Below are positions 1 through 8,182 of a stretch of DNA of 54,365 bases, piece by piece. The position numbers and the translations under genes were made by a program. The stretch comes from an uncultured Prevotella sp. GTDB taxonomy: Bacteria; Bacteroidota; Bacteroidia; Bacteroidales; Bacteroidaceae. Within the stretch, counting starts at the first letter, position 1, and the number at the start of each line of letters is the position of its first letter. Where the stretch lies: NCBI GenBank assembly GCA_945869265.1, contig CAMBOI010000022.1, positions 1-54,365 of the forward strand, written 5' to 3'. The notes beneath the pieces were generated by a model. That model had not been told where the DNA came from. It saw only the letters and a program-made list of their open reading frames with translations, and did no database searches.

Positions 1-136
1 TATAAACAAGTCTAACGTCTGGACATAAATCAATTTTGGCTTTCTTTCCATTTCGCTCTATGTGGACATGTATCGGTAGATGCTCGTCCAAATAGAAAAA
101 GAATCTCATTCCAAATATTATCAGTAAAGTAGGCAT
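1..136 (-). CDS. DUF4160 domain protein (C-terminus beyond window)
   Basis: Reading leftward from the ATG at 136, the frame stays open to the window edge for 45 codons. It begins MPTLLIIFGMRFFFY and continues with the DEHLPIHVHIE block, which is typical of the small DUF4160 family. Members are about 80-100 aa, so roughly half is missing. DUF4160 genes usually sit beside a DUF2442 gene and have been proposed as toxin-antitoxin-like pairs; the partner would lie outside the window. A good promoter stands just upstream. Biochemical function is unknown. Confidence 0.75.
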   Translation of the reverse strand, partial: MPTLLIIFGMRFFFYLDEHLPIHVHIERNGKKAKIDLCPDVRLVY

Positions 137-150
137 ATTTAATTTTTCTG

Positions 151-182
151 CAAAATTAGTGATATTTTTGGAATAAACCAAA
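151..182 (-). promoter_or_regulatory. Bacteroidetes promoter for the DUF4160 gene
   Basis: On the minus strand the -7 box is TAATTTTG (151-158) and the -33 box is TTTG (179-182), separated by 20 bases. This matches the Bacteroidetes primary sigma consensus. The predicted start of transcription is near 145, giving a very short leader before the ATG at 136. Confidence 0.65.
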
Positions 183-217
183 TGATGAATTATTAATTGT
201 AGTATTTTAACAATATC

Positions 218-250
218 AAGGGAGCAAGACGCAAGTTTTTCTCCCTTTTT
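218..250. terminator. Terminator-like hairpin between divergent promoters
   Basis: The arms AAGGGAG (218-224) and CTCCCTT (241-247) pair and run into a T tract up to 250. It lies immediately upstream of the plus-strand promoter and would insulate the structured RNA from read-through. Confidence 0.45.
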
Positions 251-251
251 C

Positions 252-282
252 TTTGTCCTTTCGATTTTTATTTGTAATTTTG
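252..282 (+). promoter_or_regulatory. Promoter of the structured RNA / R-M operon
   Basis: -33 TTTG (252-255) and -7 TAATTTTG (275-282) are 19 bases apart. Transcription should start near 289, about 410 bases before the first plausible coding start. The transcript therefore begins with a long untranslated, highly structured segment. Confidence 0.65.
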
Positions 283-288
283 CAGCGA

Positions 289-697
289 TGTAGCGGTGGA
301 TGGCGGACAAGATACCGTCGCGAGCCGCACTAAACATATTGACTAATAGCAACATCAGACTATCATTGTGGTGTTCCAGAAACAAGCCTAGGAAACTTCG
401 AATTTGGATAGAAACCACATCAATGATGGTTGGCTGTGGCGTATATACATGCGTCAGGAATAAAAGGCCAATCCGCGTATAAAGATAGAAGATGTTTGCA
501 CCCAGCAATGGGTGTGAGCATTTTTCTTATACGCGGATGGGGTCCAAATATTCCTAGGCTTGTACCCCGGAACACCATAAGAAGGCGCTTGCACCCTCTT
601 TTTATGCCTGTGTGTCTGAGGCGGATGTCATATACTGCCTAAAATGCCAGATGATAGTAGGATGGTTATTGCTTACTATCATTTGGCATACGTTATT
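289..697 (+). ncRNA. Long structured RNA or leader upstream of the R-M operon
   Basis: No convincing protein is encoded here, but nested complementary arms are obvious. TGGTGTTCC (369-377) pairs with 569-577, CAAGCCTAGGAA (383-394) with 551-562, and TTTGGA (403-408) with 543-548. ATCCGCGTATAA (471-482) pairs with 527-538. At the tip, CACCCA-GCAA-TGGGTG (499-514) forms a tetraloop hairpin. A separate 16-bp hairpin (644-689, one G-U pair) ends nine bases before the methylase ATG. Together they make a rod of about 210 nt plus a 3' stem, driven by its own promoter. I do not recognise it as tmRNA, RNase P RNA or SRP RNA. The rod-with-bulge shape recalls 6S RNA, but the side bulge is too asymmetric to claim that. 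It may be a free ncRNA, a leader, or both. Confidence 0.6.
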
Positions 698-1348
698 ATG
701 AACAAACCTAAGGAACAACAAGTAAAATCGCGCGAGCGAGTGCAACAGCATGGTGAGGTATTTACTAATGAACGTGAGGTAAATGCCATGCTCGACCTCG
801 TGAAGCACGAAACGGAACGCATCGATAGCCGATTTCTCGAACCGGCATGTGGCGACGGCAATTTCCTTGCGGAGATACTTCGCAGGAAGCTACGGGTATG
901 CCGCAACTTTGTGGAACAAGGCAAAAACACCCAGTTGGAATATGAGAAGAACGCAGTGCTTGCTGTGAGCAGTATCTATGGCATAGAGTTGCTTCCAGAC
1001 AATGTGAATGCTTGCCGTGAAAGGCTTCTTAAAATCTTTTCAGGCGAATATCATTCCCTTTTTGGCGACAGCATAAAGGCAGAATGTTTGGAAAGTATCA
1101 GCTATCTGCTCAGCAAGAATATCATCCTCGGCAATGCGCTCACATATCATAGGGTTGACAATCCCAACGAGTGGATAATAATATCTGAATGGAGCTTGCT
1201 TGGAGGCGGAATGATGAACCGCAGAGACTATGAATTCAGCTATTTGGTTGCAAGTAGTCATGGCAACGACATCTTCTCCGACGATCCTTGTAAGACATTC
1301 GAACCTGTTTATTTCCTGAAACTTAATTCTCAATCTTATGGTGAATAA
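698..1348 (+). CDS. Short N6-adenine methylase-like protein lacking NPPY
   Basis: The 216-aa protein begins at the ATG at 698. An in-frame upstream ATG at 644 lies inside the 16-bp hairpin and is disfavoured. Methylase landmarks are present: QHGEVFT near residue 18 (motif X), EPACGDGNF from residue 48 (motif I, SAM binding), YGIELLPDNV (motif II) and NIILGNAL (motif III-like). The catalytic motif IV (D/N-PP-Y) is absent and the protein ends where the catalytic half should follow. It overlaps the next gene by 11 bases, implying translational coupling. It could be a regulatory or structural partner of the following methylase, or a SAM-binding sensor. Family membership is clear; an enzymatic role is doubtful. 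Confidence 0.75.
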   Translation: MNKPKEQQVKSRERVQQHGEVFTNEREVNAMLDLVKHETERIDSRFLEPACGDGNFLAEILRRKLRVCRNFVEQGKNTQLEYEKNAVLAVSSIYGIELLPDNVNACRERLLKIFSGEYHSLFGDSIKAECLESISYLLSKNIILGNALTYHRVDNPNEWIIISEWSLLGGGMMNRRDYEFSYLVASSHGNDIFSDDPCKTFEPVYFLKLNSQSYGE

Positions 1349-2846
1349 AGAGTATAATCCCGATGTGCTCAACTGCATCGCCAACCTAAGCAACGACGAG
1401 GTATTTACGCCTCCCACTTTGGCAAACAAAGTATTGGACATGCTTCCGCAGGAATTGTTTTGCGATCCAAAGGCAACATTTGTTGACCCATTCTGCAAGT
1501 CGGGAGTTTTCCTGCGTGAGATTGTCAAGCGACTTGACCGCGGTTTGGCAGATAAGATTCCTAACCGTCAAAAGCGCATTGACCATATCATGCACAATCA
1601 GGTGTTTGGCATAGCCTTGACGGAGTTGACTTCCTTGCTGAGCCGTCGCACATTGTATTGCAGCAAGAGTGCAAACAGCCAGCACAGCGTGAGCTATTTC
1701 GAAGACGAACAAGGTCATGTTTTCTACAAGGCCATCAAGCACACATGGGTAAATGGCAAGTGCAAATATTGCGGTGCGAGCAAGGACGTATATGACAGAG
1801 GCAGCGAGTCTGAACAGTATGCCTATCAATTTATTCACACAGATAATCCCGAAAAATTATTCCCGAAAAATATGAAATTTGATGTTATTATAGGTAATCC
1901 ACCGTATCAGTTGAGTGATGGAGGAAATGGAGCGAGTTCAAAACCTCTATATCATCTTTTTGTCCATCAAGCTCAGAGATTATGTCCTCGATTTTTATGC
2001 ATGATTATTCCTGCTCGATGGTATGCAGGTGGAAAAGGACTTGATAAATTTCGTGATACCATGCTTAAAGATGGGCACATAAGTTATATTGCGGACTTCC
2101 CCAATTCGTCTGATTGTTTTGCTGGAGTTAATATTGCCGGTGGCATATGTTATTTTTTATGGGAAAGGGATAAAAGATACAAATTATGTAAGGTTGAAAA
2201 CTTTAAGAATGATAAGTCTGTTTCTTTAGCAGAACGTAATCTTTCTGAATATCCTTATTTTGTACGAGATAATGATGCAATAAACATCATAACAAAAATA
2301 AGAAGAAAAAAGGAAAAAACAGTAGATAAAGTTGTTTTTTCTAGAAATAGCTTTAATATTCCGAGTAATGAACGAGGTCATGAACGTGAAAGAAAAAATG
2401 ATTATCGTTTATTATCAAGTGATGGGTATTCATTTGTTGATAGAAGGAATATATATGATAAAGATAATATACTAAAAAAACATAAAGTAATCATTACGTA
2501 TGCCATGTCTGGAGGTAATAAGCCTACTGTAGATGGAAATTATCAAATCATTTCATCTTTATCAGTATTGCCACCAGATGAAGTATGTACGGAAACGTAT
2601 TTAGTAATTAGTGCCTTTAATAATGCAAAAGAAGCAAAGAATATGATCTCTTATGTTAAGAGCAAATTTTTTCGTTTCTTATTATTACAAGCACTTTCTT
2701 CAATACATATAACAAAAAGTACATTTATATTCGTCCCCCTCCAAGACTTCTCCCATCCTTGGACCGACGAGATGCTTTATGAGAAATATGGGTTAGACGA
2801 GAAAGAGATTGCACTTATTGAATCAATGATTCGTCCAATGGAATAA
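1338..2846 (+). CDS. Eco57I-type N6-adenine DNA methyltransferase
   Basis: This 502-aa protein carries EVFTPP (motif X, near residue 18), FVDPFCKSGVF (motif I, residues 48-58) and a full catalytic NPPY at residues 187-190, followed by a target-recognition half. It should methylate adenine in a specific DNA site. A CxxC pair (GKCKYCG) sits in an insertion before the catalytic motif and may bind zinc. From about base 1845 to 2735 the sequence turns strongly AT-rich with many AAA/TTT codons, while both ends match the neighbours. The catalytic/recognition core looks recombined. The gene starts inside the end of the short methylase gene and is followed 7 bases later by the helicase, so all three are one operon. 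Confidence 0.85.
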   Translation: MVNKEYNPDVLNCIANLSNDEVFTPPTLANKVLDMLPQELFCDPKATFVDPFCKSGVFLREIVKRLDRGLADKIPNRQKRIDHIMHNQVFGIALTELTSLLSRRTLYCSKSANSQHSVSYFEDEQGHVFYKAIKHTWVNGKCKYCGASKDVYDRGSESEQYAYQFIHTDNPEKLFPKNMKFDVIIGNPPYQLSDGGNGASSKPLYHLFVHQAQRLCPRFLCMIIPARWYAGGKGLDKFRDTMLKDGHISYIADFPNSSDCFAGVNIAGGICYFLWERDKRYKLCKVENFKNDKSVSLAERNLSEYPYFVRDNDAINIITKIRRKKEKTVDKVVFSRNSFNIPSNERGHERERKNDYRLLSSDGYSFVDRRNIYDKDNILKKHKVIITYAMSGGNKPTVDGNYQIISSLSVLPPDEVCTETYLVISAFNNAKEAKNMISYVKSKFFRFLLLQALSSIHITKSTFIFVPLQDFSHPWTDEMLYEKYGLDEKEIALIESMIRPME

Positions 2847-2853
2847 TACAGCT

Positions 2854-5637
2854 ATGGCAACAACAGATTTACTCCAAAAACAAGTGAAGGAAAGGCCTAT
2901 CATCTATGCCTATTCCGACACACGATTCCCAGGAATGTTAAAGGTGGGCTTCACTGCCCGAAGTATTGAAGTGCGCATGAAAGAACATTACCCTACGCTT
3001 GTTCCAGGACAATCGTGGAAGGTGAAGCTCATGCGCCCAGCTATGCGCAAGGACGGTTCGGTGTTCAGCGACAAGGCTGTGCACAGGGTGCTTCGAGGTG
3101 CAAATATCCAAAATCCCGAAGGCGAGTGGTTTGTATGTGGCACACGCGAGGTGGAAAAGGCTATCGAGGCAGTAAAGAACAACGAAACAACTATGCTTCA
3201 GCGCACGCAGGATTTCAAGATGCGGCCAGAACAAAAGGAAGCTGTGACAAAGACTGCTGAATATTTTGAGTCGTTTGCTGCCGACAAATCGAACGAAGGC
3301 CTTACCGCCCACTTCCTTTGGAACGCCAAGATGCGATTTGGCAAGACTTTCACTGCCTATCAACTCGCACTGCGCATGAAGTGGAAACATGTTCTCGTAT
3401 TGACATTCAAGCCTGCCGTGAAGACAGCATGGAAGGAAGACCTGCTAACACACAAGGACTTCAAGGGATGGACCTTCGTGGAAAAACAGGAGAACAGGGA
3501 GTTTAATCATGTGGATCTGTCGCAGAGGTTTGTTTGCTTCGCATCGTTTCAGGATGTTCTTGGAACAAATAGTGTGGGTGGCATCAAAGCCACCAACGAA
3601 TGGATACAACAAGTGCATTGGGACTGCATAATTCTCGACGAATATCATTTCGGTGCCTGGGGGAAAAATGCAAAGGAATACTACAACAAGCAAGATATTG
3701 CCACACGAATAGCCGAAGAGACACAGAAAATCTATGCAGAGGATGCCGCCTCGAAGAAGGAAATGGAAGCAAGGGAGACTTTCGACGAGGGATTGATGCC
3801 TCTCGAAACAATGCATTATCTCTATCTCTCAGGCACTCCGTTTCGTGCAATCGCAAGCGGAGAGTTTATAGAGGAACAGATATACAACTGGACCTATTCT
3901 GACGAGCAAAGCGCCAAGTATAATTGGGACAACAGCAAGGGCGCGAATCCTTATCTTTCGTTGCCAAAGATGGTGATGATGACCTATCAACTGCCCGACA
4001 AGATACGTGAGATAGCCGAAGGTGGCGAGTTTTGCGAGTTCGACCTCAACGAGTTTTTCAGTGCCGACGACGAAACTTTTACCAATGAGGAATATGTGCA
4101 GAAATGGGTTGACCTTATCCATGGGTCATATGCCGAGAATGTGGTGAGCGACTTGAAGCTACAAGATAAAAAGCCGCCTTTTCCATTCTCAGACACCCGC
4201 TTGCTCGACTATCTGCGCCATACGTTTTGGTTCCTGCCGACCGTTGCTTCGTGCAAGGCAATGAAAAAACTATTGGAGAAACCTGTTAACAGGAAGTTCT
4301 TTGGTCGCTATAAGATTATCGTGGCAGCAGGCAATGAGGCTGGTATGGGAGCCGAAGCCGTGAATCCTGTATATGCCAGTATGGGCAACCCTCAGGAAGA
4401 TTGCACAATCACTCTCTCGTGTGGCAAGCTATCCACAGGTGTTACGGTGAAACCATGGACAGGTATTTTCATGCTCCGCAACTCCTCTTCTCCTGAGACA
4501 TATTTCCAGGCGGCTTTTCGTGTGCAGTCGCCATGGACAATGCGTGACGAATGGGGAGAGGAAGTGGTGCTCAAACCTCTTTGCTATGTCTTTGACTTCG
4601 CTCCCAACAGAGCCTTGCATCAGGTGGCTGACTACAGTTGCCGATTGAGTGTTGATGAGCATAATCCAGAGAAGAAGGTGAATGACTTTATTCAATATCT
4701 GCCTATTCTTGCCTACGACGGATCGAGCATGAAGCAGATAGATGCAGCCGGCATCCTCGATATGGCAATGTCGGGCACCACGGCAACACTGCTTGCACGA
4801 CGTTGGGAGAGCGCATTGCTCGTGAATGTAGATAATGCAACGTTGAACCGTCTGTTAGCAAGTGACGAAGCCATGAAAGCCTTGATGAATATAGAGGGAT
4901 TCCGTGCGCTCAACAAGGACATTGAGACTATCATCAACAAGTCGGAGGCTATAAAGAAGGCCAAGAAGGAGCGTGGAGATGATTTAACAGCGAAGGAGAA
5001 AAAAGTTCTTACGGCAGAAGAGAAGGAATGTAAGTCGAAACGCAAGGAGATACAGCAGAAACTAATCAAATTTGCCACTAGAATACCTGTTTTTATGTAT
5101 CTCACCGACTATCGCGAATACACACTATATGATGTCATCCACCAACTCGAACCTGAACTATTCCGCAAGGTGACTGGTTTGACCTTACAAGATTTCGACT
5201 TGCTTGTATCGCTTGGAGTGTTCAACCGTGAACTTATGAACGATGCCGTATATAAGTTCAAGCGCTATGAAGATGCCTCACTTGTATATACAGGCATCAA
5301 TACCCATGAAGGTGAGAATGTGGGAGGCTTTGACACCGTCATATCTGAGCAGACATACAAAAGCCAAATTCCTCAGTTGGGAATCACCTCAAAGTCCTCT
5401 ACATCTGAGATGAGGGAGGAGAAAGAGGTAATACATGATGAGGGAGAAAACGCATCAATGGAAAAGGAGGACAAAGCTCCCTGGTTTTCATACACTGCAG
5501 GCGACAGGGTAACCCACAAGTCTTTTGGAGAAGGTGTTATCACTTCTATCGATGACAAATATATAATGATACAGTTTGCCACCAGCGAGAAGAAATTCCT
5601 TTTCCCACAATGTTTTGAGAAGGGATATGTCAGCTAA
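2854..5637 (+). CDS. GIY-YIG (T5orf172-like) + SF2 helicase restriction protein
   Basis: The 927-aa protein starts with a T5orf172/GIY-YIG-like nuclease domain (about residues 15-110, with IIYAYSD...LKVGFTARS). A type III/Res-like SF2 helicase follows: a degenerate Walker A (RFGKTF, about 160-165), DEYH box (262-265), SGTP (326-329) and a motif VI-like QAAFRVQSP starting at 552. The middle contains a lysine/glutamate-rich helical stretch (about 690-740). The C-terminus (about 880-925, HKSFGEGVITSID) resembles the small tudor-like domain ending UvrD/PcrA-type helicases. Encoded directly after the methylase, it is the likely translocating restriction subunit. The nuclease assignment is by fold resemblance only. 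Its own ATG (2854) follows the previous stop by 7 bases. Confidence 0.8.
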   Translation: MATTDLLQKQVKERPIIYAYSDTRFPGMLKVGFTARSIEVRMKEHYPTLVPGQSWKVKLMRPAMRKDGSVFSDKAVHRVLRGANIQNPEGEWFVCGTREVEKAIEAVKNNETTMLQRTQDFKMRPEQKEAVTKTAEYFESFAADKSNEGLTAHFLWNAKMRFGKTFTAYQLALRMKWKHVLVLTFKPAVKTAWKEDLLTHKDFKGWTFVEKQENREFNHVDLSQRFVCFASFQDVLGTNSVGGIKATNEWIQQVHWDCIILDEYHFGAWGKNAKEYYNKQDIATRIAEETQKIYAEDAASKKEMEARETFDEGLMPLETMHYLYLSGTPFRAIASGEFIEEQIYNWTYSDEQSAKYNWDNSKGANPYLSLPKMVMMTYQLPDKIREIAEGGEFCEFDLNEFFSADDETFTNEEYVQKWVDLIHGSYAENVVSDLKLQDKKPPFPFSDTRLLDYLRHTFWFLPTVASCKAMKKLLEKPVNRKFFGRYKIIVAAGNEAGMGAEAVNPVYASMGNPQEDCTITLSCGKLSTGVTVKPWTGIFMLRNSSSPETYFQAAFRVQSPWTMRDEWGEEVVLKPLCYVFDFAPNRALHQVADYSCRLSVDEHNPEKKVNDFIQYLPILAYDGSSMKQIDAAGILDMAMSGTTATLLARRWESALLVNVDNATLNRLLASDEAMKALMNIEGFRALNKDIETIINKSEAIKKAKKERGDDLTAKEKKVLTAEEKECKSKRKEIQQKLIKFATRIPVFMYLTDYREYTLYDVIHQLEPELFRKVTGLTLQDFDLLVSLGVFNRELMNDAVYKFKRYEDASLVYTGINTHEGENVGGFDTVISEQTYKSQIPQLGITSKSSTSEMREEKEVIHDEGENASMEKEDKAPWFSYTAGDRVTHKSFGEGVITSIDDKYIMIQFATSEKKFLFPQCFEKGYVS

Positions 5638-5853: not shown

Positions 5854-5883
5854 TTGGTCGGAGTTTGAGAGTATGTAATTTTG
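5854..5883 (+). promoter_or_regulatory. Promoter of the sigma-factor gene
   Basis: The -7 box is TAATTTTG (5876-5883), with a TTG-containing -33 region at 5854-5856, 19 bases upstream. A TTTGAGAG sequence (5864-5871) between the boxes is the inverse of two CTCTCAAAT copies at 5697 and 5718 and could be an operator. The start of transcription near 5890 makes the ATG at 5911 the first usable start. Confidence 0.6.
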
Positions 5884-5910
5884 CACCCAGAACAATTAAA
5901 TAACGCATAT

Positions 5911-6456
5911 ATGAAGAAAGAAAATCAGACTATGGGCTACGTGCTCAACAAGGATCAGCAAAGGCTGGTGGAAGAGAACTGGGAGTTTGCCGCTGGAGTG
6001 GCAAGGGGTTATGCCGGGGGCTGTGTGCCTATGGCTGAACTGGAAAGCGAGGCTTGGACGGCCCTGTGCTATGCTGCCTTTAAATATAAAAAGGTGGAGG
6101 GATGCAAGTTTACTTCTTATGCCTACTACTTTATCAAGGCAAGCATCTTGAGGTTGCTCAAGAGCGAGAGTGAAAGGCGAGCCGTGGAGGTGTGCTCGGT
6201 GGAGAACGACTTGGCTGAGGATGACTCCCCGGACGAGGAGATGGCTGATGGCGACGACAAGAGGAGAGCGAGACTTGACGAGTTGATGGCGAAACTCACT
6301 CCACGGGAGCGCAAGGTGGTGAGGCGAAGCTATGCCATCGGATGCGAGGAAACCTCGGTGAGGGAGTTGGCACTGGAAATGGGATTGTCGGAAGTGAGAG
6401 TAAGACAAATCCTCACCAAGGGAGTCAACAAGTTGCAAATTATGTCAAACCTATAA
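5911..6456 (+). CDS. Small sigma-70 family RNA polymerase sigma factor
   Basis: This 181-aa protein contains region 2 (AELESEAWTALCYAAFKY, then FTSYAYYFIKASILRLLKSE) and region 4 with a helix-turn-helix (LTPRERKVVRRSY...SVRELALEMGLSEVRVRQIL). The linker between them is acidic (NDLAEDDSPDEEM). Region 1 and most of region 3 are missing, as in ECF-like and mobile-element sigma factors. The start at 5911 follows the promoter; ATG 5932 is an alternative. It is followed by two genes of an accessory cluster and probably transcribes them or element genes. No anti-sigma gene is adjacent. Confidence 0.75.
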   Translation: MKKENQTMGYVLNKDQQRLVEENWEFAAGVARGYAGGCVPMAELESEAWTALCYAAFKYKKVEGCKFTSYAYYFIKASILRLLKSESERRAVEVCSVENDLAEDDSPDEEMADGDDKRRARLDELMAKLTPRERKVVRRSYAIGCEETSVRELALEMGLSEVRVRQILTKGVNKLQIMSNL

Positions 6457-6468
6457 TATTTCTTACTT

Positions 6469-6855
6469 ATGAAAAATAATTCGATTATGGAGTTGGCAGC
6501 CTCTACAAAACTGCCGATGAGAGTGCTGGTGATGGCTGAGGACATAGAACCTCTGACAAAAGCCATAGAGATGGGGTATGTGGTGTGTGACGGCAACGGA
6601 GGCGCCACGTGGATGCTTGGTAGCAAGACATTGCTTGCCTACTTCTTAGGTCGCGTGTGGGCGTCGGACTTCCCTAATGTTAAAAGAGGTGGAGGCACGC
6701 CTGTGTGGACAAAGGGCGACGGCGTGTTTCCCGCCAAGGCTCTGGAGAGGATCTTCGACGAGACCAACATCAAGGAGCTCAGGCAAGGACGGCTTTACAG
6801 CAATGTGCCCGATGGCTACCGCATCGTTGACCGACTTTTCATTACATTACAATAA
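6469..6855 (+). CDS. Hypothetical protein next to the sigma factor
   Basis: A 128-aa soluble protein starting 12 bases after the sigma-factor stop, in the same orientation, so likely co-transcribed. No family is recognised. It has no signal peptide or membrane segment. Its middle is glycine-rich (GYVVCDGNGGATWMLGSKT) and the C-terminal half carries ALERIFDETNIKELRQGR, which could be helical and nucleic-acid binding. The pairing with a sigma factor and a DUF3987 gene suggests a mobile-element replication or regulation module. Confidence 0.6.
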   Translation: MKNNSIMELAASTKLPMRVLVMAEDIEPLTKAIEMGYVVCDGNGGATWMLGSKTLLAYFLGRVWASDFPNVKRGGGTPVWTKGDGVFPAKALERIFDETNIKELRQGRLYSNVPDGYRIVDRLFITLQ

Positions 6856-6868
6856 TTACATTACAATA
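6841..6868 (+). repeat. Short tandem duplication ATTACATTACAATA x2
   Basis: Two adjacent 14-bp copies overlap the stop of the preceding gene and fill the gap before the DUF3987 start. The first copy encodes the last residues (FITLQ). Confidence 0.7.
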
Positions 6869-6884
6869 AAATATATACATCATT

Positions 6885-8182
6885 ATGGAAAATCAGATAT
6901 CAAAAAGCGCTAAGAAGTTGAATGGCAAGGAGTTAAGAAATGCGCTACCTCCTGAATGCCTCGAAAACTGCCGTTTTTGGTGGCTCATTTGGTAAAAAAC
7001 GTGCCTTATGTGTGCCGTCCGTCGGTGGCAAACGGTATTTTCCCGTCTCTTGCCGTACATTTGAATGAGGTGAAGTTCGAACTTATCGACGGCACTGAGA
7101 AAGAGGCAACGTTCATGAGTGTGAACATCGCTCCGCAATCGTCGGGCAAGTCGGCGGTGAACAAGCCAGTGGAGTATATCCTTGCCGACATCGTGGAGCG
7201 CGACAAGGTGAACCGAGAGCGCGAGCAGGAGTGGAAGGACTCGATGAATAAGAAGGGAGCCAACAAGGAGAAGCCCAAGCGACCGGACGATCTCTGCGTG
7301 CAGGTATTGGTGAGCGACATGACCAATGCGGCATTCGTGCAGAGGATGAACGATGCCAAGGGAAAGTATCTTTACACCAACCTGGAGGAGATTGAGCTGC
7401 TACGCCAATTGCACACCAACGGCACAAAGGATGTTGGCAAGATTATCTGTCTATGTTTTGACAACGGAATGTACGGCCAGGAGCGAGTGGGAACGCAGTC
7501 GGTGACGGCAAGGGTGGCTCTTCGCTGGAACTGGAATGCATCGACCACAATACTCAAGGGTCAGAAGTTCTTCCGCGGCAGTTTGGTGGATGGCACCCTC
7601 TCACGCCTGAACATATCCACGATTATTCCCGACAAGACGAAGCCTTTCGTATATGGAAAGTATGACGAGCAGTATGCCACAGAACTCAAGCCGTATATCG
7701 ACCGTCTGAATGGGGCAAGCGGTACGGTGGTGTGCCGCGAGGCTCTGCGCATGGCCAAGAGGATGTTGGAAAGATGTCAGCGTGAGGGCGACCTCACTGG
7801 CGACGAGGTGTTTCAGGACTTGTCGTATCGTGCCGTCACGATTGCCTATCTCAAGGCGATGGTGCTGTATATCGCCCATGGTATGCAGTGGTCGAAGGAG
7901 ATAGAGAAGTTTGCCGAATGGAGTCTCGACTATGACCTGTGGTGCAAGTGTCATTACTTTGGCGACGATATGTCGGACGAGAAGCAGAAGGAGCATGTAG
8001 AGCACAAGCGCGGAAGACAGAACATGCTGGAGTTGCTGCCCGACACGTTTACCGAGAAGGACGTGGTGGAGGTGAGGCAGCGATTGGGGCTTGACGGCGA
8101 CGCCAAGAACATGTTGCGAGTGTGGGTGTTCAGAAAGTATATCCTGAAGGATAAGGAAACGGGAGAATTTCGGAAAAATTAA
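6885..8182 (+). pseudogene. DUF3987-like P-loop protein, frameshifted near its start
   Basis: From the ATG at 6885 the frame reads MENQISKSAKKLNGKELRN and stops at 6993-6995. The rest (from about 6960) is open in the -1 frame to 8182, giving about 400 aa. The total of 1298 bases is one short of a whole number of codons. Restoring one A in the A4 run at 6964-6967 gives a continuous ...CLEKLPFLVAHLV reading, so a single-base deletion is the simplest explanation. A -1 slip on the T5 run at 6974-6978 would also join the frames. Downstream lies a Walker A-like APQSSGKS and acidic helices, as in DUF3987 ATPases that accompany mobile-element primase or VirE-type genes. A sequencing error is possible. 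Confidence 0.7.

Follow-up and report, generated by a model that had tools for sequence, protein, structure and literature searches.

Organization of the locus

Near one end of the window, as we call the 54,365-nucleotide stretch of DNA from an uncultured Prevotella sp. analyzed here, a conserved structured RNA stands before three genes of restriction-modification type (Table 1). A sequence-only reading had described the interval 289-697 as a structured unit of about 400 nucleotides heading a restriction-modification operon. This is borne out, since homologues carry compensatory changes in the stems, the test which that reading itself proposed. Its start must be moved: homologue DNA matches begin at position 333 or later, and the conserved RNA extends from there. 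The 409 nucleotides of the original interval fold to -164.5 kcal/mol, against -111.2 +/- 5.4 in 100 dinucleotide shuffles (z -9.9). A covariance model of the full core from 41 sequences (R2) matches 333-609 with 278.5 bits, the window being one of its 41 training sequences. The five arm pairs proposed for the rod are all present in the window and all kept in homologues; the innermost, 499-504/509-514, is the core of a longer helix, P5b, of about 494-503/510-519. The hairpin before the methylase start (P8), previously given 16 bp, has 18 bp in the minimum free energy structure, and the ATG (698-700) follows eight bases past it.

Upstream of the RNA, the predicted terminator is present as the hairpin GGGAG (220-224)/CTCCC (241-245) with a T-run. 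So is the promoter, consisting of TTTG (252-255), a 19-nucleotide spacer, and TAATTTTG (275-282), which we take to fit the Bacteroidetes -33/-7 consensus. This promoter had been regarded as the RNA's own; it belongs instead to a terminator-promoter block, roughly 70 bp long, which lies outside the RNA family and recurs in the host genome as a repeat of its own, with 10 further partial matches there and copies in loci L009, L010, and L011. Copies in the host adjoin small genes, some of them gene pairs that, as judged by eye, presumably resemble nucleotidyltransferase/HEPN toxin-antitoxin cassettes. A trio comprising a sigma-70-like gene, a gene for a 128-aa protein, and one for a 408-437-aa protein lies at 5881-8182 of the window, at 1090-3405 of L010 in the same host, and in L054 of genome G130; it is next to the toxin-antitoxin-like cassettes in L010 and beside an RNA operon in G130. 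Given that this trio recurs, a mobile element may carry the restriction operon as cargo.

Table 1. Features of the window. Pairing counts refer to A4 (MAFFT alignment, 41 sequences) or A5 (96 R2 matches); arms extended differently by the sequence-only reading are given in parentheses
Feature	Coordinates	Strand	Remarks
Terminator-promoter block	218-288	+	Hairpin 220-245 and T-run, promoter 252-282; not conserved with the RNA
Core of conserved leader RNA	333-606	+	From R2 match and homologues
P1	360-368/421-429	+	A4: 100% of cells paired; 6/9 pairs invariant, one changes on both sides
P1b	369-372/414-417	+	A4: 98.8% of cells paired; 2/4 pairs invariant
P2	369-377/569-577	+	A5: 95.8% of cells paired; double changes in 9/9 pairs
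P3	384-392/553-561 (383-394/551-562)	+	A5 and A4 counts in text
P3c	403-408/543-548	+	A4: 28/40 to 41/41 paired per position, compensatory types
P4	431-434/467-470	+	A4: 95.1% paired; 0 pairs changed on both sides
P5a	473-481/528-536 (471-482/527-538)	+	Pairs show as many as all four Watson-Crick types
P5b hairpin	494-503/510-519	+	A5: 94.1% paired; double changes in 9/10 pairs
PK	510-519/587-596	+	A4: 97.3% paired in 41 sequences; double changes in 6/10 pairs
P7	539-543/564-568	+	A5: 96.9% paired; double changes in 4/5 pairs
P6 region	578-604	+	A-rich arm, GCTTGCACCC, and U-rich tract; resembles a terminator in most homologues
P8 pre-start hairpin	644-661/672-689	+	TGATAG at 652-657, complementary to CTATCA at 360-365
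First gene, methylase-like protein	698-1348	+	MmeI_Mtase below cut-off; MTase_II E 9.6e-12; weak matches only
Second gene, Eco57I-type methyltransferase	1338-2846	+	PF07669 E 5.7e-36
Third gene, T5orf172 and ResIII helicase-type, type IIG-like	2854-5637	+	PDLC03626 E 3.5e-33

Distribution of the RNA family and comparison with known classes

The leader is a real RNA family without an Rfam 15 match; in Bacteroidales it heads operons for restriction and operons for envelope modification alike. A DNA search of 299 genomes of the host's genus gave matches in seven, the host included: G130 (80% identical), G233 (76%), G096, and G045, together with matches at a contig edge in G048 and over 22 nucleotides in G255, the latter probably due to chance. 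A model of the 5' part of the RNA (R1) matches 16 of 398 genus genomes; the locus set drawn from it omits L069 and L070 (cut off after the 5' part), L076, and duplicates. Across 84,980 species, a pattern of two conserved motifs recovered 46 stretches, 44 of which are the RNA, while L078 and L120 are chance matches in which the remainder of the motif is absent. Going by record titles, with the taxonomy of five names consulted, Bacteroidales account for 43 of these 44, the other (L087) being labelled only "uncultured bacterium". One isolate with the RNA is Parabacteroides distasonis An863 (L116). With the host counted in each case, R2 matches 74 of 399 genomes of the host's family, 14 of the matches lying outside the locus set, and 21 of 393 genomes of its order, where 18 are convincing; the order set omits L141-L143 (weak, partial), L147 (cut off), duplicates, and three matches without a locus. 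Most RNA-bearing genomes have a single copy, the order search yielding up to four per genome, and no further whole-RNA copy was found in the host genome at E 0.001.

The sequence-only reading could match the RNA to no known class, and here neither the window nor 20 family loci had a match in Rfam 15 at the curated gathering score. A scan of window positions 1-1400 with E values up to 5 returned six chance-like hits only (E 0.36-4.3), and there was no match to group I or II introns, HEARO, or other large ribozyme-like Rfam families. Phage and plasmid records searched by blastn with two members, and viral contigs searched with two exact patterns, contained no homologue, though more divergent members could escape both searches. 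The leader is not described in the open-access literature searched; preprints on bioRxiv lay outside this scope, and the negative is therefore no proof that it is unpublished. It is likewise absent from the available text of PMC2864571, PMC7366714, PMC3874152, and PMC12707154. As far as the available text of PMC2864571 goes, the Bacteroidales-1, Bacteroides-1, and Bacteroides-2 motifs are likewise structured RNA candidates from Bacteroidales. Rfam accessions are given there for the first two, which were thus covered by our Rfam scans, and these gave no match; Bacteroides-2, with no accession in the table of that paper, stands outside the comparison.

Covariation and competing helices

Pairing was counted in A4, which omits L077, L090, L112, and L121 (long loop insertions) and L093 and L118 (damaged), and in A5, three members of which (the window, L058, and L067) are also in A4. 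Over seven helices, 95.8% of A4 cells are paired (84.9% shuffled, 34-45% slid), and 23 of 55 pairs have changed on both sides. For P2, P5a, P5b, and P7 the corresponding figure in A5 is 94.6% (61.1% shuffled, 35-45% slid), with double changes in 31 of 33 pairs and a covariation score of 0.832 versus 0.224 shuffled; A5 was fitted to these four helices, and its counts therefore lean toward them. P3 is absent from the model that aligned A5 and is paired there, when counted as 385-393/552-560, in 99.5% of 815 cells, with seven of nine pairs changing on both sides; in A4 it is paired in 92.7%. P3c is weaker on A5 (38/65 to 79/86 paired per position). The pairing of P1 is little tested because the helix is nearly invariant; the collecting pattern itself fixed part of the P1/P1b sequence, and P1 is uncountable on A5 since its 3' strand is unaligned there. 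Both alignments thus display the covarying secondary structure that is looked for in a cis-regulatory leader RNA.

Several of these helices compete for the same nucleotides. P5b and PK are mutually exclusive through their common use of 510-519, as are P1b and P2 through 369-372, and P7 crosses both P3 and P3c. PK joins the 3' strand of P5b to a conserved GCTTRCACCC near the 3' end of the RNA. It is much weaker outside the first subtype, and on A5 it is paired in 77.2% of cells in 96 sequences versus 72.0% shuffled and 34-59% slid. We infer that both sides of the helix competitions have been kept, as in a switching RNA; the crossing helices could possibly also be parts of one pseudoknotted fold rather than alternatives.

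The stem P5a is set apart by its hypervariability. Among the A4 RNAs, 14 pairs share 90% identity or more when P5a is set aside; in these the stem itself has a mean identity of 62%, against 92-96% for P2, P3, P5b, and P7, and between L087 and L105 the divergence is seen in direct alignment. P5a has been largely replaced between RNAs otherwise 90% identical, with its pairing retained. The identities are from A4 only; A5-based values are unreliable because L176 and L178 score 0.33 there, yet have identical P5a when aligned directly. A simple copy of the enzyme's recognition site is not supported, because one and the same P5a precedes different gene types (L094, L101, and L116; likewise L091 and L114); genes at least 80% alike can also carry differing P5a. 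P5a may be what trans-acting or phage-borne antagonists attack, or it may mark each RNA so that folding stays in cis.

The 3' end and the start-codon hairpin

A terminator-like hairpin with a T-run is found in the last 54 nucleotides at 109 of 139 loci, against 17.5 expected from shuffles. By the same rule the copy in the window lacks a local terminator, as do 14 more among the 47 loci of the GTGGT subtype and 15 among the remaining 92, making 30 in all. The 117 nucleotides after the core are structured in their own right (mean folding z -2.6; z < -2 at 79 of 138 loci) and contain TGATAG at 89 of 138 loci, where 5.2 would be expected. The CTAT[CT]A motif, able to pair with it, lies near the 5' end at 125 of 138. 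Eight of the 49 loci lacking strict TGATAG (L195, L211, L212, L214, L215, L217, L218, and L220) form an RNA subtype with TGCATTAGCTTATTATT or similar near the 5' end and without TGATAG before the gene. This subtype mostly precedes other genes, namely BspA-type LRR, YbjQ, radical-SAM-like (by eye), and weak VWA genes.

At loci headed by EcoRI-type methylases, the start codon is assignable in 47 of 48, 18-91 nucleotides after the core. All 47 have a hairpin that reaches within 14 nucleotides of the ATG, and 35 have the ATG within a base-paired stretch. All 47 of these RNA-bearing loci contain a loose GATAG-like motif, but so do 6 of 14 RNA-free loci of this type; strict TGATAG occurs at none of the 14 and alone discriminates.

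Gene context across the family

We compiled a census of 139 distinct loci, four near-identical ones having been removed beforehand. At 131 of them a reading frame of 75 aa or more starts within about 420 nucleotides downstream. First genes were grouped by single-linkage BLAST, with profile scans on representatives only. DNA methylase or restriction-type helicase groups make up 97 of the 131, and 14 are envelope-modifying; the census consists of pattern and model hits rather than a random sample, and these counts stand without a random-gene background. The 97 comprise EcoRI-type methylases (48), N6/N4 methylases including type III Mod (15), SNF2 or PLD helicases (12), the window's Eco57I-type set (10), type I HsdM (3), MmeI-type (3) and type IIG (2) enzymes, and one each of a D12 methylase, a C5 methylase, a Mod as second gene, and a PLD-helicase piece assigned by eye (L157, a PLD-helicase start similar to L083). 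The envelope genes encode acyltransferase-3 (7), sulfatase/LTA-synthase/phosphoethanolamine-transferase-type (4), MBOAT, glycosyltransferase-2, and GDSL hydrolase proteins (1 each). Outside the 97 stand two HSDR_N proteins, one as second gene and one by eye (L219, like the HSDR_N protein of L084), and a UvrD-like helicase; 17 first genes are unassigned or of other kinds.

Two recurrent genes of the census loci deserve mention. At L128-L131, L133, L137-L139, L146, and L149 a second gene, with a start that these loci have in common, lies behind the EcoRI-type methylase; we take it to be DUF262-like, and it is possibly a paired restriction partner. Large first genes at L174, L175, L199, L206, and L210 form a group and represent a candidate defence protein; that of L174 has no Pfam or PADLOC match, and that of L199 no NCBIfam or PADLOC match.

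The converse test started from 30 EcoRI-type methylase loci that were picked by protein alone, and it needs no random-gene background. The RNA was found at 15 of the 30, in every case directly upstream of the methylase and on its strand. A start can be assigned at 14 of the 15 RNA-free loci, and all 14 lack the P1 motif in the up to 420 nucleotides upstream of it. The leader therefore has the conserved same-strand position upstream of genes of related role that is characteristic of cis-regulatory leaders.

The association is not with the window's own methylase type. Among relatives of that methylase in the genus, none of the 19 best loci (L025-L043, with L044-L053 left out) carries the RNA, and the idea that the leader belongs to this type is accordingly rejected; the 10 census loci of the type carry it by selection for the RNA. 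In profile scans, the RNA precedes a SNF2-type helicase and methylase operon in G130 and type III-like mod/res pairs in G233, G096, and G045, and in G045 about 313 kb separate the RNA from the relative of the window methylase. Given this distance and these different operons, the RNA is separable from the window gene. The leader is, in short, modular.

Discussion

The exclusive pairings, the terminator-like 3' end of most homologues, and the start-codon hairpin together suggest that window positions 333-606 form a cis-acting attenuator-type switch within the methylase mRNA leader. This is the best-supported reading, to which we assign a probability of roughly 60%. The RNA would be transcribed together with the operon, its U-rich 3' end would stop transcription or let it through, and the leader would hide or free the start codon. 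P5b may act as an anti-antiterminator, PK as the antiterminator, and P6 as the terminator, while the CTAT[CT]A strand of P1 could pair with TGATAG and thereby open P8. The output would be conditional expression of phage-resistance traits. The sequence-only reading had proposed an attenuator sensing the methylase level. Attenuation is also our favored explanation, whereas methylase sensing is not supported as a general rule, because the identical leader type precedes unrelated methylases, acyltransferases, a glycosyltransferase, and sulfatase/phosphoethanolamine-transferase-like genes. Only tentatively do we entertain the broader notion of a new class of sensor RNA that would sense phage attack and turn on, within one bacterial order, a mixed regulon of restriction and cell-surface genes, with P5a engaged in an arms race with phage antagonists.

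The terminator-like 3' end is also compatible with an RNA that is cut at its U-rich end and acts in trans as a small RNA, the CTAT[CT]A motif and the TGATAG hairpins of its own and other leaders coupling operons to one another. The frequency of the two motifs (125 and 89 of 138 loci) and the presence of up to four copies in a genome agree with such a role. On the other hand, CTAT[CT]A doubles as the 5' strand of P1, most RNA-bearing genomes have a single copy, and 131 of 139 copies precede a gene of their own, so that we regard this as unlikely. A sponge function, also raised by the sequence-only reading, or some other role in trans may nonetheless apply to the leader RNA.

It is distinctly improbable that the RNA is a functional component of defence, as a decoy, guide, or cofactor of restriction proteins. 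Its large, elaborate fold mostly adjoins restriction genes, and one hypervariable stem is what a specificity part would be expected to show. Against this, it precedes proteins with nothing in common, acyltransferases and a glycosyltransferase among them, and it is missing from the 19 loci that encode relatives of the window methylase in the genus and from 15 of the 30 EcoRI-type loci. A guide RNA that is part of the enzyme, as had been suggested, is unlikely on the same grounds, namely the unrelated methylases and envelope-type genes behind the leader.

A leader that is separable from its methylase and stands, cassette-like, before unrelated genes also recalls a DNA element such as a recombination site that folds as a single strand, or the edge of a cassette, at which operons are assembled. 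The many G-U pairs retained in the helices, the nearby start codon with its hairpin, and the terminator-like 3' end speak for action as RNA and make a DNA element more improbable still. A leader-peptide attenuator, or a plain mRNA-stabilizing 5' structure without switching, would account for the stability of the rod and of the hairpins toward the 5' end and is very improbable: insertions and deletions in the variable loops break reading frames (A4, by eye), making a conserved leader peptide unlikely, and the covarying exclusive pairings exceed what stability requires.

As a cis-acting switch, the leader resembles transcription attenuators and riboswitches in its long structured 5' position, exclusive helices, start-codon hairpin, and mostly terminator-like end. 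It differs from the known ones in having no Rfam class, in being common to unrelated restriction operons and envelope genes, and in its crossing helices and hypervariable stem. The put and EAR processive antitermination leaders and the UpxY-dependent leaders of Bacteroides are leader RNAs that precede long, horizontally moving operons. The RNA described here is like them in heading operons as a leader, and it has no Rfam match. Restriction systems are dangerous to their hosts, and their known control is mostly by C proteins and antisense RNA. The available text of one account of restriction-modification control treats both of these (PMC3874152), and the leader would be comparable to them in timing or limiting the expression of restriction genes. 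Attenuation, riboswitches, and secondary structure are not mentioned in the available main text of that paper, nor are these or leaders in the available text of PMC12707154.

If restriction systems of types I, II, IIG, and III have one leader in common with envelope-modifying enzymes, many unrelated resistance traits would come under one RNA-level signal. The leader provides a handle on the timing of restriction in Bacteroidales and a test object for RNA sensing, and R2 can serve as a marker for finding operons so controlled. If P5a is indeed under pressure from antagonists, it would be a pointer to counter-defence at the RNA level.
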